Virus record (IMG/VR): IMGVR_UViG_3300050020_000068
Coordinates: 1-27,357 of that record
Origin: a virus
Reading direction: 5' to 3' (one strand)
DNA length: 27,357 nt
In this document: piece after piece, positions 1-27,357 of the stretch
How the letters are laid out: every line of letters begins with the position of its first letter
Numbering within the stretch: position 1 is the first letter of the stretch
The notes under the pieces: model-generated
Databases searched by the model: none
What the model was told of the DNA's origin: nothing
What the model saw: only the letters and a program-made list of their open reading frames with translations
Translations under genes and position numbers: made by a program

Positions 1-464
1 GTGTTCGTCTGTCGAACGTCGTAGACCTGATAGCAGTTCGCCGGGAGGTCGTAGTAAGTCGTTCGCAGGGTGTAGGTCCCACCCGTCACCGCCTGAATCA
101 AGGGGCTGGCGAGAGTGATAGAAGTTCCACTAACGACGGTTTGAACCTCATACCAGTTCGTATCGTTCGCGGGCTGGATATAGCAGTTTGTCATGTTCGG
201 GTTTGAGGAAGTCCAAGCCGTCCCCGCCCCCGTCAATGCCGTACTTCCTGCCGTCCCGGTAATGGTCCCGGTCGTGTAGTCCGCAACGGTCTGGACAAAT
301 CCGTTAGTGATGAGCCAGGGCCAGTTATAGCGGGAGGCGATATCTTGCTGGATGATGTTCGCCCATCTAAGCGTCCTGGCACTATTGGCCGCAATGGTAT
401 TGTCGAGATTGAGGCGGTCCCCAATTTCGTTGTAGATGGTCTGGACCGTATTACTGTTCGCCAC
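1..464 (-). CDS. Partial head-tail adaptor-like protein (C-terminus off the left edge)
   Basis: A GTG codon at 464-462 opens a frame that stays open to the left edge (154 complete codons). It begins MANSNTVQTIYNEIGDRLNL and contains RYNWPWLI and a Gly/Thr-rich stretch (TGTITGTAGSTALTGAGTAW). Many phage adaptor/connector proteins share this style: a helical N-terminus, then a small beta domain with ITGTxGSxxxTGxGTxW. The G of GTG is also the last base of the upstream TAG, so translation is probably coupled to the neighbour. Its place after the capsid genes suits a protein joining head to tail. The start is inferred from the overlap. The adaptor call rests on pattern and position and is moderate; an unrelated virion protein remains possible. 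Confidence 0.55.
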   Translation of the reverse strand, partial: MANSNTVQTIYNEIGDRLNLDNTIAANSARTLRWANIIQQDIASRYNWPWLITNGFVQTVADYTTGTITGTAGSTALTGAGTAWTSSNPNMTNCYIQPANDTNWYEVQTVVSGTSITLASPLIQAVTGGTYTLRTTYYDLPANCYQVYDVRQTN

Positions 465-8597: not shown

Positions 8598-8768
8598 CTA
8601 ATCGAACGTCGTGCTTTCGATCTTTGCGAGATACCCTTGGGAGAAGTGGAGTCTGATTGACCCGTTCACCTTCTCGTCAAAAAATTGCTTCGTCTTTTGG
8701 TCGAACAGCTTAACGAGGTCTTTCTTTTCCCCGGCGGACATAATCACGATCAACCGGGAGTCATTCAT
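8598..8768 (-). CDS. Hypothetical 56-aa charged protein
   Basis: The sequence runs MNDSRLIVIMSAGEKKDLVK to YLAKIESTTFD. The ATG shares a base with the TAA of the zinc-ribbon gene (TAATG), a strong argument that it is a real coupled gene. It is mixed-charge with a hydrophobic start (LIVIMS) and several Lys/Asp pairs, consistent with a small globular protein. I do not recognise it. It is the second and last gene of the short unit between the promoter at 9055-9083 and the terminator at 8521-8551. Confidence 0.62.
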   Translation of the reverse strand: MNDSRLIVIMSAGEKKDLVKLFDQKTKQFFDEKVNGSIRLHFSQGYLAKIESTTFD

Positions 8769-9046
8769 TAGAAGCGGTCCCGGCTACCATGCCGCTTGTC
8801 TCCGACTTCCTTCAACCCGTTCGCTTTCATCACTTCGGCCTTGTGGGAACGTGAGGTTATCATGGTTCCGTGAGGGGCCTTGACTGGATCGGTGATGTTA
8901 GAGTCGAGGTATGCGCCTTTCTTCTGATCGAAGAACACATCCGCAAACGTGATCTTGCCGAGATTTCCGCATCGGTCGCAAGAGTCCTTACCCTGAGAGT
9001 ACGAAAGACGAGTCGCGGACTTGTTGCCGCAAGAGTCGCAGGTCAT
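8768..9046 (-). CDS. Small zinc-ribbon protein
   Basis: A 92-aa protein starting MTCDSCGNKSATRLSYSQGK. Two CxxC pairs (C3/C6 and C23/C26) form a zinc ribbon. The rest is Lys/His/Arg-rich and ends EVGDKRHGSRDRF, which could favour nucleic-acid contact. It starts eight bases after a strong -10 element, with no Shine-Dalgarno and no other Met near the N-terminus, so its mRNA is probably leaderless. The promoter lies directly behind the portal stop, so this gene can be expressed separately from the head genes. Role is unknown. Confidence 0.75.
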   Translation of the reverse strand: MTCDSCGNKSATRLSYSQGKDSCDRCGNLGKITFADVFFDQKKGAYLDSNITDPVKAPHGTMITSRSHKAEVMKANGLKEVGDKRHGSRDRF

Positions 9047-9054
9047 TGCGGAGT

Positions 9055-9083
9055 AGTGTACATTGGATGACTATTGCTGTCAA
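9055..9083 (-). promoter_or_regulatory. Sigma70-type promoter for the zinc-ribbon gene (probable leaderless start)
   Basis: The -35 element is TTGACA (9083-9078), followed by GC; the spacer is 17 bases and the -10 element is TACACT (9060-9055). The ATG at 9046 begins eight bases after the -10, so the transcription start should fall on or next to the AUG. The block CTTGACAGC is identical in the promoters at 14791-14819 and 18986-19015. Confidence 0.75.
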
Positions 9084-9086
9084 GAC

Positions 9087-10901
9087 TCATTGTGCCGCCA
9101 TGCTAGGAGGCGGGAGAGGCCCGGCATTAGCCCCGCCCTGCGGATGAGGTCTAGCCGGGGGGCCGCTGTGGTGTACATGATGCTGGACAGGATGCGGCGG
9201 CGGTCCCTGCGGTTGCTTTGGGGCCATCGCGGCCTGTTGCTGGGCCTGTTTCTCCATCGCTTCCTGTTCGTCGCAAGCGACTTCAAGTTCTGCTATGTCC
9301 AGTTCTCGCAGTAGAGCCTTCCTGACCGCGTTGCCGATGGGAGAGCCGGGGACGATACCCATGGCCTGACCTTTTTCGAGAGTCGTATCGAGCAATCGAA
9401 TCTTGTTCTCTCGGTTCAGCGGGAGAGTCGATCCGGCCTTAGCCTCTACCTCAAACTCTCCTTTGATGGATTCCTTCGTGAACTTGATTCCGGTTTGGTC
9501 AATCGTGACGCCGGGGATGCTCTGGAACTGAGCGACGATCTGCTCCGGCTTCATTCCGGTAATGCGGACGTACTTCGGGATATCTTGGAACTGCTTGACC
9601 AAGGAAATATACTTATCCGTTATTTCCTCCAAGAAGTCCTCAAGCGTATCTTGCTTTGAGTTCTGCCGGACTGAGGTCCCCTGGTTCTGCTCTTGAAGCT
9701 GATATTTTGTGGTCTTGGCGTTCGTCTTGGGCGGGGCTCCACGGTCCAAGTCTGACTGACCAATCACGGCGTCCATGTCGGACTGTAGGAAATTGTCGAT
9801 GGCGAAAATCTCTTGCTGTAGGGCCGCGTACTCGATAGGGGCGGGAGGTGCTGACCCTTTCCGACGCTGAATTACCGCGCCGTCAACGCCTTGAGAGAAC
9901 TTCTCCATCTCTTCTTTCGTGACCGCGCCTTCCTCAACGGAAAGCTGACGGCCCCACCGCTTGATGTGATTGAGTTGCGCGGCCCTTAGCTTGATCCTCT
10001 CTAAAATCTGAGGCTCAATCAGGAAAACGTCCGAGATTGGATAGGGCTTGTTATTGACGCGGTTGAAAGCCAGCATCGAGTAATTGAGTCCTGACATTTC
10101 GTACTTGTAGTCATCTTCCCGCAAGTATTTGTCGGACTGGTCGCAAACGCAGTAAACCTTCTTCGTGTCGAGGTCCGTGATTTCCCAAAACTCAAACAGT
10201 TCGGAATCATCCCCCTCGGCTTGCTGCTCGTCCTTATTCTTGTCCTGAGCGTCCTTGCTGTCCCGGCTCTTGACGTTTGAATCAAGTCGCCCGGTATTGG
10301 TGTAATTGTGGTCCCTCTTCATCTCGTCCAGCGGCTTTACGATGCGATGGGCAATCCAGCGACAGTCATAGGGCGGCATCTTCGACATGGCCGTGTCGAA
10401 AACGATATCCTCCCACGGGACGTAGGACATGAAAATTTCTTCGTTCTTGATGTACTCGGCTGGCTCAGTTCCCGGCTCTGACAAACGCTGTCCAGTCTCC
10501 GAGACATAACCAAGCTTGATCCAACCGTGGGCCACTACCAGGGCGTCAATCAACGTCTGCTTGATGCTCCGTTTCACCTTGAGGGACTTAAAGGCGTAGT
10601 TGGTATCAAGCTCCATGATCCGAGCGGCCCCGATAGACTCCTTCCCCTTGGGGTTGATCGTCATGTGCGGGTCGCGGAAATAGATACGGCTTGAAGCGGT
10701 GTCAACGTAGCCGAAAACGAGGTTGATGGGCGGGGCCTGAGTGCCGCCTACTTTTACGTCGTACTCGCCAGAGTATTCCTTTTCAAGTCGCGCCCACTCC
10801 TGCCGCTTCTTTTCCTTGTCGCGGTAGCGCAGGGAACGCTTAATTCTCTCCATCCAGACTCGGGCCGTTACGCGCTTGTCGTCCTTCTCTTTATCGGCCA
10901 T
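9087..10901 (-). CDS. Portal protein
   Basis: A 604-aa protein of typical portal length, between terminase and scaffold/capsid. It starts MADKEKDDKRVTARVWMERI after a GAGGAG ribosome-binding site. The helical, charged N-terminus (SLRYRDKEKKRQEWARLEKE), the VFGYVDTASSRIYFRDP segment, the middle with VPWEDIVFD and the long helical part near QEIFAIDNFLQSDMDAVIGQ to LEEITDKYISLVKQF match portals of podovirus- and siphovirus-like phages. It should form the dodecameric DNA gate at one vertex. The last ~50 residues are unusual: Gln/Pro/His-rich (HPVQHHVHHSG), probably disordered. No frameshift is seen. Confidence 0.85.
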   Translation of the reverse strand: MADKEKDDKRVTARVWMERIKRSLRYRDKEKKRQEWARLEKEYSGEYDVKVGGTQAPPINLVFGYVDTASSRIYFRDPHMTINPKGKESIGAARIMELDTNYAFKSLKVKRSIKQTLIDALVVAHGWIKLGYVSETGQRLSEPGTEPAEYIKNEEIFMSYVPWEDIVFDTAMSKMPPYDCRWIAHRIVKPLDEMKRDHNYTNTGRLDSNVKSRDSKDAQDKNKDEQQAEGDDSELFEFWEITDLDTKKVYCVCDQSDKYLREDDYKYEMSGLNYSMLAFNRVNNKPYPISDVFLIEPQILERIKLRAAQLNHIKRWGRQLSVEEGAVTKEEMEKFSQGVDGAVIQRRKGSAPPAPIEYAALQQEIFAIDNFLQSDMDAVIGQSDLDRGAPPKTNAKTTKYQLQEQNQGTSVRQNSKQDTLEDFLEEITDKYISLVKQFQDIPKYVRITGMKPEQIVAQFQSIPGVTIDQTGIKFTKESIKGEFEVEAKAGSTLPLNRENKIRLLDTTLEKGQAMGIVPGSPIGNAVRKALLRELDIAELEVACDEQEAMEKQAQQQAAMAPKQPQGPPPHPVQHHVHHSGPPARPHPQGGANAGPLPPPSMAAQ

Positions 10902-10989
10902 GGCGCAAGCTCCTCATTCCCAAGACCCAAACAGGCAACGCCACTCCGAGTAAGAAACCGCAACAGAAAGAGATTCTAACGGGGTCCAT
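10891..10989 (-). CDS. Tiny single-pass membrane protein (32 aa)
   Basis: The start MDPVRISFCCGFLLGVALPV is followed by WVLGMRSLRHGR. Nearly the whole middle is one hydrophobic segment, and the C-terminus is basic, suggesting an inner-membrane protein with a cytoplasmic tail. The ATG shares a base with the stop of the 20-aa gene before it (TAATG), and its end overlaps the portal start by 11 bases. Such a small membrane protein might be a holin-like or regulatory peptide; nothing decides this. Moderate confidence because of its size. Confidence 0.45.
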   Translation of the reverse strand: MDPVRISFCCGFLLGVALPVWVLGMRSLRHGR

Positions 10990-11051
10990 TAGTCCCACGC
11001 CCTTCGCCCGGTACAAACATCGCAACCGCACCCAGGTCTAGGAATTGTCAT
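10989..11051 (-). CDS. Possible 20-aa Cys-rich microprotein
   Basis: The whole protein is MTIPRPGCGCDVCTGRRAWD. GAGG lies five bases before the ATG, the ATG overlaps the TAA of the acidic 37-aa frame (TAATG), and its own TAA overlaps the next ATG. The CxCxxC core resembles short metal-binding knots, and a similar CKCEVC occurs in the 48-aa protein at 25698-25844. Very short, so it could be a translated linker that couples its neighbours. Confidence 0.35.
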   Translation of the reverse strand: MTIPRPGCGCDVCTGRRAWD

Positions 11052-11313
11052 TAGTCCTCAAGACAGTCGTCAATCTCGTAGTCATCATCTTCGTCCTCGT
11101 CGGGGAGGACTTCGGCGCGGTCGATAGGGCGCGGGCATGAGATAGTTCCTTCTTCAAACCGCATACCACTTCTCGCCAATACTCAACCGTCCTAGCGGCA
11201 GACTCGGCTCCACAGTTGCAGTTGGGCCAATGCCTGTTTTCTCTCTTGTACTTAGCAGAGGCTTTGAAGCCGCCGAAAGGGCAAAGTTTTGAATGCTCAT
11301 TCTTCTCGCCCAA
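11038..11313 (-). CDS. Small Cys/His-containing protein (91 aa, TTG start)
   Basis: It starts at TTG 11313 (MGEKNEHSKLCPFGGFKASA) with GGGG eight bases upstream, and overlaps the end of the ATP-grasp gene by 17 bases. CPFGG followed by NCNCGAESAARTVEYWREV resembles the small 'restriction alleviation protein Lar'-like zinc ribbons (CPFCGG...CxxCG...A...W), although one expected Cys is replaced by Gly. The first ~60 residues look protein-like. The tail (SSPTRTKMMTTRLTTVLRTN) looks like a shadow of the strongly acidic frame 11051-11164. Either the genes overlap or a frameshift joins the two. Confidence 0.5.
   Translation of the reverse strand: MGEKNEHSKLCPFGGFKASAKYKRENRHWPNCNCGAESAARTVEYWREVVCGLKKELSHARALSTAPKSSPTRTKMMTTRLTTVLRTNDNS
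11051..11164 (-). CDS. Small acidic protein (37 aa) overlapping the Cys protein in another frame
   Basis: It starts MRFEEGTISCPRPIDRAEVL and ends in a run of Asp/Glu (DEDEDDDYEIDD) before CLED. Its TAA overlaps the ATG of the 20-aa frame. The acidic tail and codon choice look far more like real coding than the same DNA read in the 11038-11313 frame. It may be an independent overlapping gene, or the true C-terminus of the Cys protein reached by a -1 shift. No strong ribosome-binding site precedes the ATG. Confidence 0.45.
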   Translation of the reverse strand: MRFEEGTISCPRPIDRAEVLPDEDEDDDYEIDDCLED

Positions 11314-12625
11314 GATTATAGCCCCATTTCTTCAACTTTTGTAAATCTTCTTTACACCTGTTGCCAATGTCCGTTCGGTAGAACACGCCGGGGAAGAAAA
11401 CTTGCGGGATGATATCTTGATAGACCATCTTCTGAGCTTCGGCCAACGTCTTACCGCGCCCCGTCGCCACAAGAGGCAAGCACCCGTTGGTCATAAACCG
11501 ATCTTTCTTATGAGACACGTTGTAAAGGTGAAGATGCTCGATATTCTTCGGCGTAAGACCTTGGAGCAAGTGACCGTCGCTCCGTTCGTGTCCTTCTGTG
11601 TCGTAGAACGGGTATCCCTCCCCAACCAGTAGAACGCCAACGGCCCAATCGGTTGAGAACTTGGCTTTAGACTTCGTTCCGGTAGCAATGTCATGGAGCA
11701 ATTCCCCCCACGGTGAATCGTGAAGCTCTTGCTCGATGTAACTGGACGGATATCCAAGTCGAGGGGTAAACTCAAGCGGCCAAATCCCTTCCTCGTCAAC
11801 GATGGTGTTTACGTCTATTTGTCCCCGAAAATCGAAATCTCGAAGGAACTGCCCCATCTTGCCCACTGTCTCTTTCCAAAACTTGTTTTCGTCACCGTAG
11901 AACATGGCGGTTCCCATCTCTCCGGTATTGAAGCCCAACTCCCCGGTTGCAATTCGCTTGTGTTCGTAATTATAGTTAGGGGGTCCAACAAAGTCCTTTC
12001 CGTTGAACCAGGAGCTTGCGGCGACTTCGACGCCTTTCTTTCTTTCTTCAATCTCGATCTTCGCAATCTTCCCCGAATTGGGCCGCTCCGGTAGAGTCTC
12101 TAGCCAGCCTATCGCGTCGGAATTGTCGTCGTAGTTCCCGACATATGTCTTTTCCGAACCGCTGCCCTGAATCTCTGGCTTGATGACGTGGGGGACCTTG
12201 TGCTGTTTCAGGTGAGCGATTGCCTGGGCCATGTCCGAGAACTGTAGAGACTCGATGGGCTTGCCAATCTTTAGCTTCTCCATGATCTCATGGCTAAAGC
12301 TCCGATCCTTCTCTAGCGTCGTCGCAAATTTTGAAGCAACAATGTTCTTCCCGCCGAAACTCCCGTCACGGTAAGCCATCCCGAATGCGGGTTTTTTTGC
12401 TTTGAGGATAAATGAACTGATATCGTCCATTCCCGTATCATCGAGAACGGCGTAATCACACCATCCCACTCCCGCCCGCCAGTTCTTTTCTTTTTCAATG
12501 AGTCCGTCCAGGTTGGATGATTCGTCTTTCTCAACAACGTGATACTTAACGTCGTGTCCTTCCATGGCGAGACGTAGAGCTAGGTCTCCCGCGCCGGATT
12601 CTTTGCTGACAAATAGGATTTTCAC
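11297..12625 (-). CDS. PurD-like ATP-grasp ligase
   Basis: A 442-aa protein starting at GTG 12625 (MKILFVSKESGAGDLALRLA), overlapping the upstream stop (GTGA). Its layout follows phosphoribosylamine-glycine ligase: a Rossmann-like N-domain, then the ATP-grasp (HVIKPE at 146-151, GVEVAAS at 198-204). The PurD-like signature is HKR at 222-224 with NTGEMG at 233-238, and the metal/ADP-binding part is EFTPRLGYPSSYIEQ at 285-299. PurD usually has NTGGMG and ExNxRFGDPExQ, so the site is altered. It could make glycinamide ribonucleotide or use another carboxylate and amine. No other purine gene is nearby, and its operon holds exported proteins, so a role outside purine synthesis is plausible. Confidence 0.8.
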   Translation of the reverse strand: MKILFVSKESGAGDLALRLAMEGHDVKYHVVEKDESSNLDGLIEKEKNWRAGVGWCDYAVLDDTGMDDISSFILKAKKPAFGMAYRDGSFGGKNIVASKFATTLEKDRSFSHEIMEKLKIGKPIESLQFSDMAQAIAHLKQHKVPHVIKPEIQGSGSEKTYVGNYDDNSDAIGWLETLPERPNSGKIAKIEIEERKKGVEVAASSWFNGKDFVGPPNYNYEHKRIATGELGFNTGEMGTAMFYGDENKFWKETVGKMGQFLRDFDFRGQIDVNTIVDEEGIWPLEFTPRLGYPSSYIEQELHDSPWGELLHDIATGTKSKAKFSTDWAVGVLLVGEGYPFYDTEGHERSDGHLLQGLTPKNIEHLHLYNVSHKKDRFMTNGCLPLVATGRGKTLAEAQKMVYQDIIPQVFFPGVFYRTDIGNRCKEDLQKLKKWGYNLGREE

Positions 12626-12738
12626 TTATTCCCCAAAGCCTCGATCCGTCCCTTGAGCGCGTCGTTCGTAACCCTGTACGATTGGATGGCGTCATAGGTT
12701 TCTGAGTCAAACGCCCTCAGTATCGGCTGGAAGTTCAC
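12622..12738 (-). CDS. Small helical protein (38 aa)
   Basis: It runs MNFQPILRAFDSETYDAIQS to LKGRIEALGNK. It starts at GTG 12738, overlapping the lipoprotein stop (GTGA), and its stop overlaps the GTG of the ATP-grasp gene (GTGA). A longer frame to 12858 runs through the lipoprotein gene and is rejected. The composition suggests one or two amphipathic helices. Overlaps on both sides argue for a real, coupled small gene; function is unknown. Confidence 0.55.
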   Translation of the reverse strand: MNFQPILRAFDSETYDAIQSYRVTNDALKGRIEALGNK

Positions 12739-13040
12739 TTCGCTACCCCATTTACGCCTATGTGGGAGAACGTATCGAGCAGACCCGACGAGCAGTACAT
12801 CGTCGTCATCGTGCATACGTCCCCATTGCAGGTGTACGTGTTGCACCCGTCGAACCAAGTTCGCGTCGTTCCGCTAACGTCGAGCTTCGTCTGCGGCTCA
12901 TGTCCGCATCCACCCGCGCCAATTCCCACGCACCCGCCGACAATCCTGATTGTGTCGTTAGGGCAGACGTACCTGACCTCAATGACGCGAGGCGCGCACC
13001 CGGAGGCGAGGAGCAGGAGGGCGGGGATTAGGGGTTTCAC
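12735..13040 (-). CDS. Cys-rich lipoprotein
   Basis: A 101-aa protein starting at GTG 13040 (MKPLIPALLLLASGCAPRVI). It has a short positive N-terminus, a hydrophobic core and the lipobox LASG|C with C15 as the lipid-bearing residue. After cleavage the mature part is rich in Cys (VCPN, GGCVGIGAGGCG, DGCNTYTCNGDVCTM), suggesting disulfides and an extracytoplasmic location. It is coupled to the exported protein upstream (TAAGTG) and to the 38-aa gene downstream. Known phage lipoproteins include Rz1 spanins and superinfection-exclusion or receptor-blocking proteins. This one is too Cys-rich and Pro-poor for a typical Rz1, so a surface role is the better guess. Confidence 0.75.
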   Translation of the reverse strand: MKPLIPALLLLASGCAPRVIEVRYVCPNDTIRIVGGCVGIGAGGCGHEPQTKLDVSGTTRTWFDGCNTYTCNGDVCTMTTMYCSSGLLDTFSHIGVNGVAK

Positions 13041-14336
13041 TTATTTATACCTCGCGCAAATGACTCGTGCAGTATTCCCGGTCAAACCCGCGCAAAGAAT
13101 AAACCACTCGCCACATGGCATTGACGAGCAGTTGGGAACGCTTATCAGGGTAGGGGCCGCACCGCCAGCGCAGTACCCTCCGCCTCCAGTCAGGTTCATT
13201 CCAGTCGGGCAATCTACAAGCACAGACGCAGAGCTTGCTGGGCTATTTTCAACGATGGTGGCCCCCATGCTCACGTTCCCGGCGAAAGTTGCCGATCCAG
13301 AAGTGACCGAGAAGCCGCTCGCGCCGCCGACAGATAAGGATGATCCGGTTCCGTCGATAAAGACAGTGGCGCTGGAAACGTTTAGGATGCGGGAATAGAG
13401 GTCCCCCGTCAGAAGGAAGCCGATATTCAGCTTGTTACTGTCGGACCCCGACAGAGATAGGGGTACCGCGTTCGCTCCGATCATGATGTTGTTAGACCCG
13501 GTAGTCGTGATCGTGTTGGTCTGGTATCCGAGGAACGTGTTGTTGTTCCCGGTCGTTACTAGCTCGCCCGACGCTTGCCCCTCGAACACATTGCCGTTGC
13601 CCGACGTGAGGTAGTAGCCCGCGAGCTGGCCGTTGATGGTATTACTACTTCCGCTCGTGATCGACCAGCACGCAACATGGCCAATGCAGTTGTTGTTGAT
13701 TCCGTTCGTGATGACAGGCCCCACTTCTGCTCCAACGAAGGTGTTTTGGAAAGCGGTCTGCGGCGGTTGAAGAGACGCGCCGGAACTTCCGGCCCAGAAG
13801 CCGATATATGTATTCGCATAGCCGGTGGTGTTTCCCCAGCCGGCCGCCGTCCCGATGAACACGTTGTAGTTTCCGGTGTTGTGGGACCCCGCGTTGACGC
13901 CAATGCCAAGGCTGCCGCCCTGGATGTTGCCGTCGGATACACGCGGCGTGGCCGGGAGCAGATTCAGGATTGTCGATCCCTGCATGGAATATCCCGTCGC
14001 GCTGCTGACATTGATCCCATTCGGCGAATTTATTCCGCTCGCCCCAATCGTCGTCCCCGTCGAAGTGATTGATGTGCCGGGGATGGTCACGCCCCCCGCC
14101 GTCAGCCCATACGCCACCGTCGCGCTCCCTCCGTGCACCGTGAACGAGGACGCTCCGACGGAGAAGGCGTTGCCGACGACGGTGACGGTACCAGAGAACA
14201 CGCTGGCACCGTTTATCGCGGTGTCGAAATACTGCCAATTCCCCGTTGTCCAGAGGTTTTCGTTTACGGTAGTGAGCGTCTGAGCCTTGGCCGATACCGA
14301 CAGAGACAGGATCGCGGCGACGAGAAGTTTTATCAT
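13041..14336 (-). CDS. Exported adhesin/fibre-like repeat protein
   Basis: A 431-aa protein starting MIKLLVAAILSLSVSAKAQT: a clean Sec signal with a likely cleavage after AKA. Residues ~45-120 are Gly/Ser/Thr/Val-rich beta repeats. Residues ~150-310 carry recurrent N-x-[FY]-[IL]-G motifs (NVFIGTAAG, NTYIGFWAG, NTFVGAEVG, NTFLGYQTN, NIMIGANA), resembling YadA-type trimeric head or beta-roll repeats. The C-terminal ~60 residues hold six Cys (CPTG, GGGYC, NCSSMPCG, FILC, VICARY) in the pattern of a small disulfide-bonded C-terminal domain seen in exported and fibre proteins. The signal peptide is odd for a tail fibre and suggests host-surface display or secretion. The ATG overlaps the previous stop (ATGA). 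Confidence 0.75.
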   Translation of the reverse strand: MIKLLVAAILSLSVSAKAQTLTTVNENLWTTGNWQYFDTAINGASVFSGTVTVVGNAFSVGASSFTVHGGSATVAYGLTAGGVTIPGTSITSTGTTIGASGINSPNGINVSSATGYSMQGSTILNLLPATPRVSDGNIQGGSLGIGVNAGSHNTGNYNVFIGTAAGWGNTTGYANTYIGFWAGSSGASLQPPQTAFQNTFVGAEVGPVITNGINNNCIGHVACWSITSGSSNTINGQLAGYYLTSGNGNVFEGQASGELVTTGNNNTFLGYQTNTITTTGSNNIMIGANAVPLSLSGSDSNKLNIGFLLTGDLYSRILNVSSATVFIDGTGSSLSVGGASGFSVTSGSATFAGNVSMGATIVENSPASSASVLVDCPTGMNLTGGGGYCAGGAAPTLISVPNCSSMPCGEWFILCAGLTGNTARVICARYK

Positions 14337-14782
14337 GATGTTTTGGTTGAAGTCACCGCTCCGTTATTTGAAACGCTGATAAGGTAAACGTGAAGTCCGT
14401 TTGGAGTCTTTGAGTAAAACCCGCCACCCGCCGCGCCGGATGCCCCGGATGTTTGCAGAGTTGAAGTAATGGCCCCGTCGTTGGCCACTCCGATAAGGTA
14501 GGTATGCAGACCATTCGGAGATGTCGCGGTAAATCCGCTTCCCGCTGATCCGGCGTACACTTTAGAAGTCGGGGCTCCGTCATTCGCTACACCAATCAAA
14601 TAGGTGTGTAGACCGTTTGGAGTGCTGACCAATAGACCGCCGCCAGAACCGGAAACATATACCGGGACAGTAGTTGATACCGCTGTTCCGTCTACCGCCC
14701 TTCGGCAAATCTCAAAGAGAGTCTGCGACAAATCCCTTTCATTCTTGGTGAGGTTGTGGGGGATAGGAATGGGCAGGGCCAT
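14333..14782 (-). CDS. Three-repeat beta protein (TPNGLH repeats)
   Basis: A 149-aa protein. Residues 10-33 are a likely helix (NLTKNERDLSQTLFEICRRA). Then come three repeats starting at residues 54, 88 and 127, each close to [ST]PNGLHTYLIGVANDGAxTS, separated by Gly/Ser/Ala-rich linkers. Such a short trimer-like repeat with an N-terminal helix suits a small spike, fibre or adaptor to the exported protein encoded next, but that is inference. The ATG lies eight bases after a consensus -10 with no Shine-Dalgarno, so translation is probably leaderless. It heads the operon that runs into the lipoprotein and ATP-grasp genes. Confidence 0.72.
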   Translation of the reverse strand: MALPIPIPHNLTKNERDLSQTLFEICRRAVDGTAVSTTVPVYVSGSGGGLLVSTPNGLHTYLIGVANDGAPTSKVYAGSAGSGFTATSPNGLHTYLIGVANDGAITSTLQTSGASGAAGGGFYSKTPNGLHVYLISVSNNGAVTSTKTS

Positions 14783-14790
14783 TGTCCCGT

Positions 14791-14819
14791 ATGATAGTAC
14801 GCTTGTCCGATGCTGTCAA
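14791..14819 (-). promoter_or_regulatory. Strong sigma70-type promoter heading the exported-protein operon (leaderless)
   Basis: The -35 element is TTGACA (14819-14814), followed by GC; the spacer is 17 bases and the -10 is TATCAT (14796-14791). It overlaps the terminase stop codon. The ATG at 14782 begins eight bases beyond the -10, which leaves no room for a 5' leader. The CTTGACAGC block is shared with two other promoters here. Confidence 0.8.
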
Positions 14820-16174
14820 GTATTCTTCTTTTCTCCGACAAGTTCCTGATACCATCCGTCGCTGTGTTCTTCGACTTGATTTTTCCAGTATTCCCAGGAC
14901 CCTGCCGGAGCCTTCACCGTTGCGGCGCGAGGGGCGTCCCAATGACTCATGAGCATGGACATGGCGTCTATAACGTCGTCATGTTGACCCCTGGGAAAGG
15001 CGGCAAACTCTTTGATGATGTCATCATGTTCGCCTTGTCGGAACAACACCGCGCCAGCCTCTATGCGCGGCTGTAGGGCCATCACGCGGGCTTGCTTGCT
15101 CTTGGCGTGATGCTTTATCTCAACGATTCCCAAGTATTTGTTTCTGGCACGCATGGCCTCGTAGAGGTTGTCTTTCAGTAGCTTCTGGAATCCAATCGTT
15201 TCAACGCACCAGTACGGAACATCCCACGCTTCCGACATTCTGAAAAATTCATCAATAGACGCGGCCACGTTCTCGCACTTGAACTGAGCGAAGTCCAGAA
15301 CATAGGTTTTCTTGTCCTCGCCCGTACCAGTGACTACCATCCCGTTGAAGTCGCCCAAGGGACTGATGGCTGGGTCCCACGCGGCACAGCGGCTCATCTT
15401 CTCCGGGGGTTTTTCGTAGAACTTGAACATGCTCCGCTTGAAGAACTGGGCTTCGGGGTCTATCGCCTCAAGCAGGTATTCTCTCTTGAACCCAAACTCC
15501 CCAACCTCTGCCCTGCGCTCATTGAGCTTATCTATGGGCCACCTCTCAGGCCATAACGGCTGCCCCTTCGCGTTTATCGCCGGGTACTCAGCCGTGTGAT
15601 ACGCCTTGTTGCGCTTGATGCGCTCGATTAGATCGTCGGGGTAGACGTAGGTCCCGGTCACGACTATCTTGCCGTCCGGGCGGCACATCGGAACAATTGC
15701 CCTCAAGAAATAATCCTCTTGATTGTCCGCGTCCATACCAGCGTAGTCCTTAACTGGATCGTCGATGATGATGAGGTCGTAATGCCCGCCGCGTCCCGAT
15801 GTGCCGAACGTGAGACTGTTGATCTTGCTACCGTTTTTCAGGTGCAGGGCTGACTTTGACCAATCCTCCCCTTCCTCCGGCAAAAGGTACGCCGAGAGTA
15901 TCCCGCGATTCTCAATCAGGTCTTTTATCCCGCTGATGAGACGCATAGACTGGGTTTCGCTGTACGAAATGATGAGGACTTGAAGGCCAGGGGACTCTAT
16001 CGCCCGGTGAATGGGGTAGAAATTAGATATCAAACTGCTCTTGCCCATGTCGCGGGAAGCCACTAATAACAGCCTAGGATGGGTCGCCAGGAGTTTTTCC
16101 CACTCCCCCCAATGGTCAGGGAAGGAAAGGCCGCAATCCTCTACCAGGGCATTAAGAGGGCTTACGGATAGCAT
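14816..16174 (-). CDS. terL: Terminase large subunit (packaging ATPase and nuclease)
   Basis: A 452-aa protein. The ATPase half has an adenine-binding region near the N-terminus, a Walker A variant LLLVASRDMGKSSL (35-48), an LIISYSETQSMRLI segment and Walker B LIIIDDP (134-140) followed by a coupling-motif-like VVTGTYVYPDDL. The nuclease half shows the RNase-H-like acidic positions: CAAWDPAISPLGD, VLDFAQF with WCVETIGFQ, and HDDVIDAMSML near the end. It cuts and pumps DNA into the prohead through the portal. The ATG overlaps the small-subunit gene by 23 bases. Its last codons overlap the next promoter's -35. Confidence 0.92.
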   Translation of the reverse strand: MLSVSPLNALVEDCGLSFPDHWGEWEKLLATHPRLLLVASRDMGKSSLISNFYPIHRAIESPGLQVLIISYSETQSMRLISGIKDLIENRGILSAYLLPEEGEDWSKSALHLKNGSKINSLTFGTSGRGGHYDLIIIDDPVKDYAGMDADNQEDYFLRAIVPMCRPDGKIVVTGTYVYPDDLIERIKRNKAYHTAEYPAINAKGQPLWPERWPIDKLNERRAEVGEFGFKREYLLEAIDPEAQFFKRSMFKFYEKPPEKMSRCAAWDPAISPLGDFNGMVVTGTGEDKKTYVLDFAQFKCENVAASIDEFFRMSEAWDVPYWCVETIGFQKLLKDNLYEAMRARNKYLGIVEIKHHAKSKQARVMALQPRIEAGAVLFRQGEHDDIIKEFAAFPRGQHDDVIDAMSMLMSHWDAPRAATVKAPAGSWEYWKNQVEEHSDGWYQELVGEKKNT

Positions 16175-16475
16175 TTAGGGCTTCGGCCAGCTTGATGAAG
16201 TAATCCTTTGCCTCGATGTCTCGTGGCACGGAGTCAATTTTCAGTTCATCGGGCATCTTGCGGGCGATGTACGGCAAGAGCCTACCAAGCGGGTCAAAAT
16301 CCCCTTCCTGGGCGGCTGAAAGCGCGGCATCGAGTATTCCTGGGAGCTTGCCAGGGACTTGGCTATTCCAAGCCTCAAGCAATTGGGCCTCTACGGCCTT
16401 CTGCTCTACTGTGCGCTTGTTCAATGATCCCGCCTTCCTTCCACCTTCTTTGCCATGTCCAGGCTTGAATACCAT
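16152..16475 (-). CDS. terS: Putative terminase small subunit
   Basis: A 107-aa protein starting MVFKPGHGKEGGRKAGSLNK, a basic N-terminus with the GGRKxGSxNK pattern common in small DNA-binding and packaging proteins. Helical segments follow (VEQKAVEAQLLEAWNSQ; DYFIKLAEALNAIRK). Position directly before and overlapping the large subunit is the main argument. It would recognise phage DNA for packaging. The ATG is five bases after a -10-like TATGAT, suggesting a leaderless message, and an inverted repeat covers the start region. Sequence alone does not prove the TerS family. Confidence 0.68.
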   Translation of the reverse strand: MVFKPGHGKEGGRKAGSLNKRTVEQKAVEAQLLEAWNSQVPGKLPGILDAALSAAQEGDFDPLGRLLPYIARKMPDELKIDSVPRDIEAKDYFIKLAEALNAIRKPS

Positions 16476-16508
16476 ACTAAATCATACTATTTTAGTATCT
16501 AATTCCAA
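16474..16508 (-). promoter_or_regulatory. Promoter and inverted-repeat operator at the terminase start
   Basis: On the minus strand TTGGAA (16508-16503), 16 bases and TATGAT (16486-16481) form a moderate promoter ending five bases before the ATG (16475). An inverted repeat with 8-base arms (ATACTAAA at 16474-16481 and TTTAGTAT at 16491-16498) covers the -10 and start codon. A shorter palindrome (16484-16498, 6-base arms) lies inside. This is a plausible repressor site controlling the switch to packaging genes. Confidence 0.5.
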
Positions 16509-16525
16509 TCGTGAAAACTACACGC

Positions 16526-17518
16526 CTAGTTTACCTTGCTCTCGACGGGGGCTGGCGAGGGGTGGTTCCCACAGTTCTTTGCCCCGCATCCGCCGCATTG
16601 AATCTCGCTCTCGCAAACGCAGGTCACGCACCCGCAGGACTTGTGAAGCTGAACGATGCGCTCTTCGGGGTCTGTGGGGGCTGGCGAGGGTGGGGACGCG
16701 AGGGACACCGTATTCCCGCGCTCAACGTCGATCATCTTCAAGACGAACATCGTTCTTTCATGGTCCCCGTTTATGACGAGCGCGGTCTGCGCGGCATCAA
16801 TTATCCGATCCAGTCTTTCCATCCGCTTGCGAAGCTCGGCCAGTTCGGCGTCCAGAACTTCCTTCCCGTCGTAGTCCTTCTCAGACTTCAACCTCTCGAC
16901 CTCGGAGGTCACGGAGGCCAGCGAGGCGGTCAGGGCGGCGAGTTTGTCCATTAATTCGCCACGGTCTTTCATCATTCCTTTCCCGAAGCGAACTCCCTCA
17001 TCGGATTTTGCGGTTAAAAACTCGATGCGTTCGTGCCTCTCTTTGCACACCTGTCTTTCGGCTTGCCAGTTTTGATAATACTCGTCGCGCTCCTTTCTGG
17101 CTACGGCAAGATCGCGCTGTAAACACTCAATGCTCACGCACACTGGTCCCAGACCGTCGGAGCTACGGGTATGAAGCGTGACACTCTCCGCCTCTTCGAG
17201 CCGCACCGTCGCGGCGCGGAGGGCGTGGACGAGGATGACCCCCTGAGCGTCTGTCCCGCACTCAGAGCATGAATACGGCTTATCTCCGAAATGCTCCATC
17301 GCCTCCTTCGTCCCAGGGTCAGAGGGTTGCCAGGAGGTGTAGCGTCGAAGCTCTTGGCGTAGCCCCTCGATCTCATCATCCTTGGCGACGGACCGCGCTC
17401 CGCAATCAATCTCGGAGTCGATGATCTGCTTGCGCTCCTTCTTCAACGCCTCGTTCTCCGCTTTGAGGGCGGAAATTCGTAGATGGCAGGCACAGCTATT
17501 TGGGTAAACTTCGCTCAT
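16526..17518 (-). CDS. Long coiled-coil protein with Cys clusters
   Basis: A 330-aa protein starting MSEVYPNSCACHLRISALKA. Most of it is predicted coiled coil, with heptad-like leucines (ISALKAENEALKKERKQI; LMDKLAALTASLASVTSEVE; LAELRKRMERLDRIIDAAQT). A zinc-ribbon-like CSECG lies near residue 84. The C-terminus has a dense cluster, CGCVTCVCESEIQCGGCGAK, then NCG, likely binding one or two metal ions. Its start overlaps the upstream stop (ATGA). It resembles the coiled-coil/zinc proteins of unknown role common in phage early regions. It could be structural or nucleic-acid-associated; I cannot decide. Confidence 0.75.
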   Translation of the reverse strand: MSEVYPNSCACHLRISALKAENEALKKERKQIIDSEIDCGARSVAKDDEIEGLRQELRRYTSWQPSDPGTKEAMEHFGDKPYSCSECGTDAQGVILVHALRAATVRLEEAESVTLHTRSSDGLGPVCVSIECLQRDLAVARKERDEYYQNWQAERQVCKERHERIEFLTAKSDEGVRFGKGMMKDRGELMDKLAALTASLASVTSEVERLKSEKDYDGKEVLDAELAELRKRMERLDRIIDAAQTALVINGDHERTMFVLKMIDVERGNTVSLASPPSPAPTDPEERIVQLHKSCGCVTCVCESEIQCGGCGAKNCGNHPSPAPVESKVN

Positions 17519-17703
17519 ATTTTATTCCTCTCGCCCGCTCGGATAGCGGCGTCGATGGCTTGGCGGACGTTCCGCTTTGGCTTTGACAGGTCGTAGTAGT
17601 CGCCGCACCTGTAATACACGCCGGGGTTATTGCCCTCCTCACCGTGAAACTCCTCGCGTTGACCATCGAGCCAATCCAGCCTCATCTTGTCGGTGATCTT
17701 CAT
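17515..17703 (-). CDS. Hypothetical 62-aa phage protein
   Basis: It starts MKITDKMRLDWLDGQREEFH, with a strong GGGAGG before the ATG, and ends with a helix (NVRQAIDAAIRAGERNKI). The opening [MT]-D-x-M-R-L-D-W-L and closing R-x-A-I-D-x-A-I match a common style of small phage early proteins. Its ATG overlaps the stop of the 53-aa gene before it and its stop overlaps the start of the coiled-coil gene. No function is known to me. Confidence 0.75.
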   Translation of the reverse strand: MKITDKMRLDWLDGQREEFHGEEGNNPGVYYRCGDYYDLSKPKRNVRQAIDAAIRAGERNKI

Positions 17704-17861
17704 TTATTCCTCCCGCCCGCTGCGCGGGATCGTTTGTGTTTCAAGCATCGGGCGCAAGTGACTTCGCGCCAACGGTAGACGGTACACCAATCCCCCGGAG
17801 GCCACTTCCCCGGCCAGATGCACACGATCCCGAAGCCCGGGCTCCATTTGTGGACCTTCAC
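17700..17861 (-). CDS. Small Trp/Arg-rich protein with CxxC (53 aa)
   Basis: It starts at GTG 17861 (MKVHKWSPGFGIVCIWPGKW), continues through DWCTVYRWREVTCARC and ends with a basic tail (KHKRSRAAGGRNK). The GTG overlaps the previous stop (GTGA) and its TGA overlaps the next ATG. Seven Trp/Tyr and the CARC motif with other Cys suggest a compact metal-binding or RNA-binding protein; not recognised. Confidence 0.62.
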   Translation of the reverse strand: MKVHKWSPGFGIVCIWPGKWPPGDWCTVYRWREVTCARCLKHKRSRAAGGRNK

Positions 17862-18247
17862 GGCTTTGGTTCTCCCTGCTTCTGTGCGGGTTGAGCGGCG
17901 GGGACTTTCACGCCGACGGCTTTAAGGGCGGCGAGGCAGATGGCGCGAGGGGCTGAGTCGTTCCATATCATCGCGTGATCCCCAGTGTCAGGCGAATGGA
18001 ATGAACACCCGGCGCGACCGTTCGGGGATAGTTGGATTGAAGCCCCGATGTAGCATCCCTCATTGCCGAGTTTCTCTACCACCTCCCAAGCGGCGGCGAT
18101 GTCGGCGCTGTAGCGGGGAAAGTCCGGGTTTGCGACTGTGTTCGATTCGGGCCTAGAATTTGGTACCGCCCATCTCCCGGCCAGGGGGTAATAAGTCCAC
18201 CCCATCACCTTCTCAGCCACGAGCGCGTCTAGTTCTCTATCGGTCAC
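17858..18247 (-). CDS. Phage ABA-sandwich domain protein
   Basis: A 129-aa protein starting at GTG 18247. Residues 1-105 have the features of the phage ABA-sandwich family (also annotated DUF2591): MTDRELDALVAEKVMGW at the start, PRYSADIAAAWEVVEKL in the middle and AICLAALKAVGVK near the end. The family is widespread in phages as a small alpha-beta domain of unknown role. The C-terminal ~15 residues are a Pro/Gln/Ala-rich tail. It sits in the block of small genes transcribed from the promoter 18986-19015. Confidence 0.75.
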   Translation of the reverse strand: MTDRELDALVAEKVMGWTYYPLAGRWAVPNSRPESNTVANPDFPRYSADIAAAWEVVEKLGNEGCYIGASIQLSPNGRAGCSFHSPDTGDHAMIWNDSAPRAICLAALKAVGVKVPAAQPAQKQGEPKP

Positions 18248-18252
18248 GGTTT

Positions 18253-18678
18253 CTACTTGCTAGAGACGGCGGCGAGAGCAAGGCTGACCCTTGAGTAAAG
18301 AATCCCCACCCGCGCTCTCTCCAATTCCTGAGACTGGCGGCGGAGTTCGGCGGCGTCTCGGGCGGCTATCCACTTGGCTACCATCATCGTGCGCCAATGA
18401 GGGTCCTCGCTAAAAGCGGCCTCGGTGAGCATTCGGGCGGCGTCATATTGCTCGGCGGTTGGCTTCAACGCCTCCTCGACTTCCTGAGTGTAGGGGGTCC
18501 ATTTGGGAGCCTTGATCTTGAAACCGCTTCGGAGAACACTCTCCATTTCTGCCTTGATAGTGCTAGGAGGCGTCTTTGCCGCCGCGAAACGACGGATTGC
18601 GTCTAGAATGTAAACCTCTACCCGAGTGAAGGTTGAGGAACGGCGGGAGTCTTTTTCTTTCTGGCTTAGAGCGGTCAT
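18253..18678 (-). CDS. Hypothetical helical protein (141 aa)
   Basis: It starts MTALSQKEKDSRRSSTFTRV, with its ATG overlapping the previous stop (ATGA). The sequence is strongly helical and Ala/Arg/Glu-rich (VEVYILDAIRRFAAAKTPPS; MVAKWIAARDAAELRRQSQE). No motif is recognised. The basic first 20 residues might bind nucleic acid. Neighbours suggest an early-middle accessory role. Confidence 0.68.
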   Translation of the reverse strand: MTALSQKEKDSRRSSTFTRVEVYILDAIRRFAAAKTPPSTIKAEMESVLRSGFKIKAPKWTPYTQEVEEALKPTAEQYDAARMLTEAAFSEDPHWRTMMVAKWIAARDAAELRRQSQELERARVGILYSRVSLALAAVSSK

Positions 18679-18878
18679 GCGGGCCTCAGTTCAGACTTGT
18701 CGCACATGGAAATATATCCGTCCGAGAACTCCACGAAAAAGAATCCGTCCGCCTCGTCTTGAATCTCCCCAACTTCCCCGCGTCTGACAATGCGCCCGTC
18801 AGACTCCAATGGATTCGGGTAAATGTTTTTCTTCGCTACGACTCGCGTCACTTCGACTTCGATCATGGAGAGAATCAT
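18675..18878 (-). CDS. Small beta protein (67 aa)
   Basis: I start it at ATG 18878 (MILSMIEVEVTRVVAKKNIY) because that codon overlaps the stop of the 34-aa gene upstream (ATGA) and GGGGG lies before it. A longer frame to 18950 overlaps that gene. Alternating hydrophobic strands (VGEIQDEADGFFFVEFSDGY) and the Asp/Glu content suggest an SH3-like or OB-like barrel. No family assigned. Confidence 0.65.
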   Translation of the reverse strand: MILSMIEVEVTRVVAKKNIYPNPLESDGRIVRRGEVGEIQDEADGFFFVEFSDGYISMCDKSELRPA

Positions 18879-18979
18879 TTGATCCCCCGCAGAATCCATC
18901 CGATTCGATTCAGCAGAAAAGAAAATCTCCCGCCACGAACCGCCGCCCACGCTTGAATCTGAATCCCAATGTTTTCCAT
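18875..18979 (-). CDS. Leaderless 34-aa small protein or leader peptide
   Basis: The protein is MENIGIQIQAWAAVRGGRFS then FLLNRIGWILRGIK. Its ATG is six bases beyond a consensus -10, so transcription should begin at or beside it. Its stop overlaps the next ATG (ATGA). It is amphipathic and basic with two Trp, which could suit a membrane-active or regulatory peptide. It may mainly carry ribosomes to the coupled downstream gene. Confidence 0.5.
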   Translation of the reverse strand: MENIGIQIQAWAAVRGGRFSFLLNRIGWILRGIK

Positions 18980-18985
18980 ACCCTC

Positions 18986-19015
18986 AGTATAGCAGTAGTG
19001 GTTATCCGCTGTCAA
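18986..19015 (-). promoter_or_regulatory. Strong sigma70-type promoter for the 18979-16526 gene block (leaderless)
   Basis: The -35 element is TTGACA (19015-19010), followed by GC; the spacer is 18 bases and the -10 is TATACT (18991-18986). The ATG at 18979 starts six bases later. The same CTTGACAGC block occurs in the promoters at 9055-9083 and 14791-14819. GAGGG lies between -10 and ATG but would be largely upstream of the transcript. Confidence 0.8.
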
Positions 19016-23551: not shown

Positions 23552-23580
23552 AATATAGCAAGTAGTCAAATCTTTGTCAA
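23552..23580 (-). promoter_or_regulatory. Strong sigma70-type promoter for the small-gene cluster
   Basis: The -35 element is TTGACA (23580-23575), the spacer is 17 bases and the -10 is TATATT (23557-23552). It lies just after the small lipoprotein gene. Unlike the other strong promoters it lacks GC after TTGACA, and an 11-bp stem begins at the expected start. An ATG four bases past the -10 opens only MRSP before a stop that overlaps the next ATG. Confidence 0.72.
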
Positions 23581-26374: not shown

Positions 26375-26667
26375 TTGGAATCCTCCAAAGCCTTGCGGGC
26401 GGTTTCCTGGCACCAAGAGAACATCCGCTCTTGAAATGCGAGCTTCCCTGATTCAAGCAAGGCGTTGGTAATTACTCCTGTCTCCACGTTGCCCTGCGCG
26501 ATATCATTTAGCTTCTCGCGCAAGGCTGTATACTTGTGCCCCAGTTCTACCAAGGCGTCGGAAACAAGTTTGTTCGCCTCCACAAGCGTATCGTTTTCCG
26601 TCTTGACCCGCGCCAGTTCTTCGGTAAGCTCTTTGAGAGTCGGCGTGATAGTATGCTCGGGAGTCAT
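26371..26667 (-). CDS. Coiled-coil protein (98 aa)
   Basis: Start at ATG 26667 (MTPEHTITPTLKELTEELAR), which overlaps the previous stop (ATGA); the longer frame to 26781 is rejected. Heptad leucines run through TLKELTEELARVKTENDTLVEANKLV-like segments (residues ~9-60), then a helical end (LAFQERMFSWCQETARKALE). Probably a parallel coiled-coil dimer of unknown role. Confidence 0.7.
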   Translation of the reverse strand: MTPEHTITPTLKELTEELARVKTENDTLVEANKLVSDALVELGHKYTALREKLNDIAQGNVETGVITNALLESGKLAFQERMFSWCQETARKALEDSK

Positions 26668-27357
26668 TTCGCCACCGCCGCAAAGAATCCCTTGAACGTA
26701 TCCGCGCCGTAGGCCCCGACGGTCAGGCCGATTATTTCCTTCACCGTCAGCGAGTCGGGAGTCTGACGAGACTCCATCCAAGACCGGACCCCGCCCTCAC
26801 ACGCTCCGGTTATGACTCGGTAAGCCCGGATCGCGTCCCGCTTCGTCACAACCTGATCCAGCGTCCAAGCCTTGAACTCGGAAGGGTCGCGCTTGCCGAT
26901 CTTGAACAAGAGCCCGTCGCGGGCCTCTGCCAAAGTCTTGCCGTGAGAGAACGCCTCTCCGTCAGTGACGAGGTAAGAAACCTCGGTCTTGCCGCAAATG
27001 ATGACGCGAGACACCGGGCCGCGAGTAGAGACTATTCGCGCCAGCACTCCGTCAGCGAATGAAAAGCCAGCCGCCGCGAAAGATGAGAGAAGCATGGCGC
27101 GGCATTTCTGGACGGCGGTTGAATCTTCTTTCTTTGCGTGAGGGGCGTAAAGTTTCCCGTCCGCGCTGATGCCGAGGTAGCCGCCCACGCTCGTCAGCAC
27201 CGGGAGCTTCGCGTCCGCTCTGATGCCGAGGGAGCCGCCCACGCTCGTCAGCACCGGGAGCTTCGCGTCCGCGCTGATGTCGAGGTAGCCGCCCACGCTC
27301 GTCAGCTCCGGGAGCTTCGCGTCCGCGCTGATGCCGAGGTAGCCGCCCACGCTCGTC
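26664..27357 (-). CDS. Partial leucine-rich-like repeat protein with conserved phage C-terminal domain
   Basis: The frame is open past the right edge; only its last ~230 residues are here. It begins with four 18-residue units of the type SVGGYLGISADAKLP.LT, then a spacer with YAPHAKKEDSTAV. A ~145-residue C-terminal domain follows (VSYLVTDGEAFSHGKTLAEA, then LTVKEIIGLTVGAYGADTF), which resembles a domain that recurs in phage proteins. The repeats look like a beta-solenoid or leucine-rich surface. Repeat proteins of this kind are often annotated as adhesion or 'LRR' proteins; in an early region an effector or binding protein is as likely. Confidence 0.72.
   Translation of the reverse strand, partial: TSVGGYLGISADAKLPELTSVGGYLDISADAKLPVLTSVGGSLGIRADAKLPVLTSVGGYLGISADGKLYAPHAKKEDSTAVQKCRAMLLSSFAAAGFSFADGVLARIVSTRGPVSRVIICGKTEVSYLVTDGEAFSHGKTLAEARDGLLFKIGKRDPSEFKAWTLDQVVTKRDAIRAYRVITGACEGGVRSWMESRQTPDSLTVKEIIGLTVGAYGADTFKGFFAAVAK
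27138..27357. repeat. 54-bp tandem repeats within the partial repeat gene
   Basis: Four units of 54 bp (18 codons), nearly identical at the DNA level, run to the right edge. They share blocks such as CGCCCACGCTCGTCAGC and GGGAGCTTCGCGTCCGC. The high identity suggests recent expansion or ongoing slippage, so copy number may vary. Confidence 0.8.

Follow-up and report, generated by a model that had tools for sequence, protein, structure and literature searches.

Three gene starts on the minus strand of the window, which is the whole of the uncultured virus record IMGVR_UViG_3300050020_000068 (27,357 bases), lie just downstream of sigma70/sigmaA-type promoters. The distance from the end of the -10 (TANNNT) to the start codon is 6–8 nt at these three sites and at two sites in a relative, G001 (IMGVR_UViG_3300025679_000019, loci L016 and L017). 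Probably, ordinary promoters of the sigma70/sigmaA type yield leaderless late mRNAs of the first genes of modules here, and the best reading is that of a known mechanism occurring in less usual genes. We infer promoter activity, the position of the transcription start, leaderless translation and timing from the nucleotide sequence.

Promoters and start codons in the window

The minus strand carries all recognisable genes of the window (Table 1). The phage collection searched gave zero nucleotide matches to isolated relatives. The capsid is approximately 24–33% identical to phage capsids, those of Myxococcus Mx8 and Mx9 among them, and the genome contigs searched gave only remote capsid matches, in a Hydrogenedentota MAG and a Flavobacteriales MAG. 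A tandem protein repeat, TSVGGYLGISADAKLPELTSVGGYLDISADAKLPVL, is located at the end of the window (26664–27357).

Table 1. Promoters, candidate promoters and genes in the window
Feature	Position	Strand	Description
Promoter 1	9055..9083	-	-35 TTGACA 9083-9078, 17-nt spacer, -10 TACACT 9060-9055
92-aa CxxC protein gene	8768..9046	-	ATG 8 nt past promoter 1 -10
Promoter 2	14791..14819	-	-35 TTGACA 14819-14814, 17-nt spacer, -10 TATCAT 14796-14791
149-aa gene	14333..14782	-	ATG 8 nt past promoter 2 -10
Promoter 3	18986..19015	-	-35 TTGACA 19015-19010, 18-nt spacer, -10 TATACT 18991-18986
34-aa ORF (putative gene)	18875..18979	-	ATG 6 nt past promoter 3 -10
67-aa ORF (MILSMIEVEV...)	18675..18878	-	Starts in ATGA overlap with 34-aa ORF stop
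Fourth perfect -35	23552..23580	-	-10 TATATT, non-coding region
Weak similar candidate	16481..16508	-	TTGGAA-16-TATGAT, 5 nt ahead of ATG 16475, without SD
TerL		-	phrog_38
Portal		-	P22/SU10-type
Major head protein		-	phrog_9953
Erf-like annealing protein		-
RNA ligase		-

All three promoter sites were found with the positions, spacers and ATG distances given in the initial sequence-only reading, and each matches the sigma70/sigmaA hexamers, 16–18 nt apart, at 10–11 of 12 consensus positions. The block CTTGACAGC, claimed to be identical at the three sites, is present at each of them and nowhere else in the window (exactly three copies). The start of the 92-aa gene is 40 nt beyond the portal stop. 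In both the window and G001, TerL ends in a stop TGA that shares bases with the -35 of promoter 2, and the 149-aa gene is the first in a cassette of approximately 3.9 kb between TerL and the portal gene. At promoter 3, a TG sits one base ahead of the -10.

For the randomisation, 600 first-order Markov sequences with the window composition were scanned on both strands. The exact pattern TTGACA-16..18-TANNNT was observed four times in the window, all on the coding strand (random mean 0.24, maximum 3), and the same pattern followed by ATG or GTG at 5–9 nt three times (random mean 0.03, maximum 1); CTTGACAGC, with its three copies, had a random mean of 0.16 and a maximum of 2. The fourth perfect -35 in Table 1 was rejected as the leaderless start of a real gene, the next ATGs being located at 4 nt (MRSP-stop) and 15 nt.

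The genes at 9046 and 14782 had been described as lacking both a Shine-Dalgarno (SD) sequence and another nearby start, while other genes of the same phage, such as capsid and scaffold, have strong SDs. The latter was confirmed for the capsid, scaffold and portal genes among others, with calculated SD duplexes of -8 to -10 kcal/mol; over a set that also includes the RNA ligase gene, the range is about -7 to -10 kcal/mol. The absence of an SD holds strictly for gene 9046, but ACGGGAC, weak and unfavourably spaced, precedes gene 14782, so that neither gene has a usable SD. Homolog alignments and close upstream in-frame stops agree that neither gene has another nearby start: distant homologs of gene 9046 begin at the same Met, and an in-frame stop lies within the -35 of gene 14782, with no start codon between that stop and the ATG.

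The ORF at 18979 has an ATG 6 nt after the -10, as originally noted, but it is merely 34 aa long and overlaps the 67-aa ORF at ATGA. GAGGG is located immediately 5′ of its ATG, and a transcript starting at this ATG would exclude it. Codon statistics are better for the 67-aa ORF, codon use favouring its frame, and coupling of its translation to that of the 34-aa ORF is probable. At site 3, a short putative leaderless reading frame might plausibly feed a gene coupled to it.

The gene at 16475, which precedes TerL and is a probable TerS gene, has the weak candidate promoter listed in Table 1. Its homolog in G001 has an SD, and one gene further upstream in G001 there is a candidate TTGCGG-17-TATAAT-7-ATG (L016:61-97). 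Overlapping inverted repeats, ATACTAaaaTAGTAT and ACTAAA...TTTAGT, adjoin the gene before TerL at 16470–16500 and are a possible operator.

Relatives and the probable origin of the promoters

G001 covers two of the three promoter sites and shows 72–80% nucleotide identity to the window over most of the aligned DNA, in collinear blocks. After the portal gene, G001 carries CTTGACA-18-TACACT (L016:8167-8196) and, 8 nt further, the ATG of L016:8205-8480, whose product is 80% identical to the window 9046 product. After TerL, it carries CTTGACA-17-TAGACT (L016:1883-1911) and, 7 nt further, the GTG of L016:1919-2149, whose product is 49% identical to the window 14782 product; the window protein encoded at 14333–14782 contains three copies of a TPNGLHTYLIGVANDGA repeat, and the G001 homolog contains one. 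In-frame stops two to three codons upstream of both G001 starts (TAA TCG CCA ATG; TAG ACG GTG) mean that no earlier start is possible. Between the window and G001 the hexamers have been kept while much of the spacer has changed, one spacer being longer by a base, which is the pattern expected from selection on a start-abutting promoter. G001, although diverged, retains the position, the start codon and the lack of an SD at the two comparable sites, which argues for the predicted leaderless layout. Strong promoters with a real start 6–8 nt downstream made up five of seven in the window and G001 and 3 of 50 in other loci (approximately 500 kb). A promoter in L051 that passed the same filter was set aside as unrelated; it belongs to a TnpB-like transposase gene.

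Counterpoints to the leaderless reading are that there is one close relative, that two of the three sites are comparable, that promoter 3 precedes a 34-aa putative gene with GAGGG ahead of its ATG, and that the G001 start at site 2 is GTG. No locus related to promoter 3 was found, G001 beginning just upstream of TerS. GTG performs poorly as a leaderless start in E. coli but well in some bacteria (PMC9031893).

In more distant relatives (L020, L022 and L042), the start of the 9046 homolog overlaps the preceding portal frame (ATGA or similar) without a promoter, whereas the 40–41 nt gap between the portal and post-portal genes in the window and G001 contains one. The distance between TerL and the portal gene is within about 200 nt in L020, L022, L025 and L032 versus 3.9–4.5 kb in the window and G001, where the accessory-gene cassette occupying this interval opens with promoter 2. 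The window cassette (14782–10902) encodes an ATP-grasp/GARS-like ligase (11297–12625) and a spike-like protein (13041–14336). Because the distant relatives have neither the promoter gap nor the cassette, promoters 1 and 2, at least, look like lineage-specific acquisitions that would each give a module its own start, and like insertions that replaced translational coupling. Comparison of the window with its relatives offers a view of a coupled gene before and after it acquired a promoter predicted to make its message leaderless.

The promoters might be real but auxiliary, with translation coming mainly from longer messages, on which ribosomes would reinitiate beyond the stop of portal or TerL, and with their closeness to the ATG reflecting mere compactness. 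The genes do stand in a tight series on one strand, with 40-nt gaps that could permit reinitiation. We consider this unlikely, since the 6–8 nt spacing persists at the two comparable sites despite changes in sequence and spacer length, reinitiation across 33–41 nt tends to be inefficient where no SD is available, and the distant relatives that couple have overlapping genes instead.

Bases beyond the hexamers and the IMG/VR survey

IMG/VR was scanned for TTGACA-N17-TATAAT-N{4,16}-ATG, which gave at least 120 stretches (L060-L179). After removal of similar promoters and with an ORF of 50 codons or more required, 60 cases remained among the matches listed, and in 41 of these 60 the ATG was located at 6–8 nt, against 14 expected under even spacing (p about 1e-13). 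This sharp peak, placed at 6–7 nt past the -10, indicates that the arrangement is widespread among viruses. Genes behind the listed promoters include those for DNA polymerase, clamp loader, primase, exonucleases, helicase, a T4-type late sigma factor and terminase small subunits. Repeated TTGACA-16-TAnGTT promoter-like elements with a GGAGA SD-like stretch downstream, seen in L002, L003 and L004, form a distinct family of repeated promoters with leaders, belonging to a different phage.

The shared bases beyond TTGACA had been taken to suggest a dedicated recognition element, and related phages were proposed as the place to look for it. The promoters near starts were indeed present in G001, but the GC extension of CTTGACAGC was missing (TTGACACA, TTGACACG) and is rejected as a conserved element: TTGACA in the G001 promoters is preceded by C and followed by CA or CG (CTTGACACA, CTTGACACG). 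The preceding C is common in general, occurring in 21 of 41 leaderless-type viral promoters among the matches listed. The claim of a dedicated CTTGACAGC element therefore did not hold.

A spacer element, TCGGACAAGnGTACTA, links promoters at non-orthologous sites. The promoter 2 spacer TCGGACAAGCGTACTA agrees at 15 of 16 positions with the spacer of G001-8167, which is not its ortholog, and at 13 of 16 with that of its ortholog, G001-1883. A search of IMG/VR for TTGACAN{2,5}TCGNACANNNGTACTANNNT, in which contigs nearly identical to the window record may be missing, gave two matches, both in G001, and none in another contig. The likeness is real, and either a promoter copied from one site to another or a site for a regulator would account for it; it leaves room for a weaker form of the dedicated-element idea. 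That a phage or host factor reads bases beyond the hexamers, whether CTTGACAGC, present at all three window sites, or the spacer element, and thereby sets a timing of its own, is nevertheless improbable: G001 does not have the GC after TTGACA, W-9046 and W-18979 do not have the spacer element, and promoter duplication or conversion explains the likeness equally well.

Chance, or a constraint other than transcription such as a repeated DNA element or the TerL stop (ACT TGA) overlapped by the promoter 2 -35 in both phages, is very hard to sustain, being disfavoured by the randomisation, by the -35/-10 distances conserved at non-homologous sites and by the lack of any longer repeat seen common to the sites.

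Proposed mechanism and comparison with known systems

Under the preferred reading of leaderless messages from ordinary promoters, host RNA polymerase would read sigma70/sigmaA-type promoters heading gene modules, with the -10 ending 6–8 nt ahead of the first start codon of each module. Transcription from the usual 7–9 nt past the -10 would begin at the AUG or GUG or 1–2 nt earlier, and as the message would start at the start codon, the first gene would be translated as a leaderless mRNA by the 70S/5′-AUG route. Downstream genes of the module would rely on their own SD or on coupling. In the window and G001, a promoter in a gap of approximately 40 nt would free the module from coupling to upstream transcripts. 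A bolder proposal, offered tentatively and more doubtful than the mechanism itself, is that promoter cassettes of approximately 40 bp, acquired by this lineage and spreading between sites as the shared spacer element may suggest, converted late genes once translationally coupled into leaderless units with a timing of their own, and that leaderless starts are common and overlooked in essential replication and packaging genes of uncultivated phages. To judge by the scan, a survey of leaderless starts on core phage genes is feasible from sequence alone. SD-trained gene finders can place such starts wrongly or miss them, and initiation-factor levels and drugs such as kasugamycin would affect leaderless phage messages differently.

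Leaderless genes of bacteria are marked by a TANNNT about 10–12 bp ahead of the start codon (Zheng et al. 2011, PMC3160421); these 'TA-led' genes are host genes and are commonest in Actinobacteria and Deinococcus-Thermus (PMC3160421). The window sites resemble them in having TANNNT, at 12–14 counted from the first T, and, at 9046 and 14782, no usable SD, but belong to phage genes with near-perfect -35 boxes. Thermus phages phiYS40 and P23-45 produce leaderless transcripts from host-type promoters; in the window, phage genes would likewise be expressed as leaderless messages from such promoters, but no comparison made here relates it to these phages. Tailed-phage morons are insertions that bring a promoter of their own and sit among conserved structural genes. 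The 3.9–4.5 kb insert between TerL and the portal gene, with its own promoter and a counterpart interval of about 0–200 nt in relatives, is similar, but the window cassette has a putatively leaderless first gene and no terminator identified. For lambda cI (transcribed from pRM) and similar phage repressor messages, a sigma70 promoter starts the message at the AUG, with no SD. Lambda leaderless initiation is mentioned in PMC3160421 and PMC9031893. The window sites share with cI a sigma70-type promoter placed where the message would start at the AUG and, at 9046 and 14782, the lack of a usable SD, whereas the genes concerned, one for a small post-portal protein, one heading a cargo cassette and one a short ORF, belong to late or structural modules and are not repressors.
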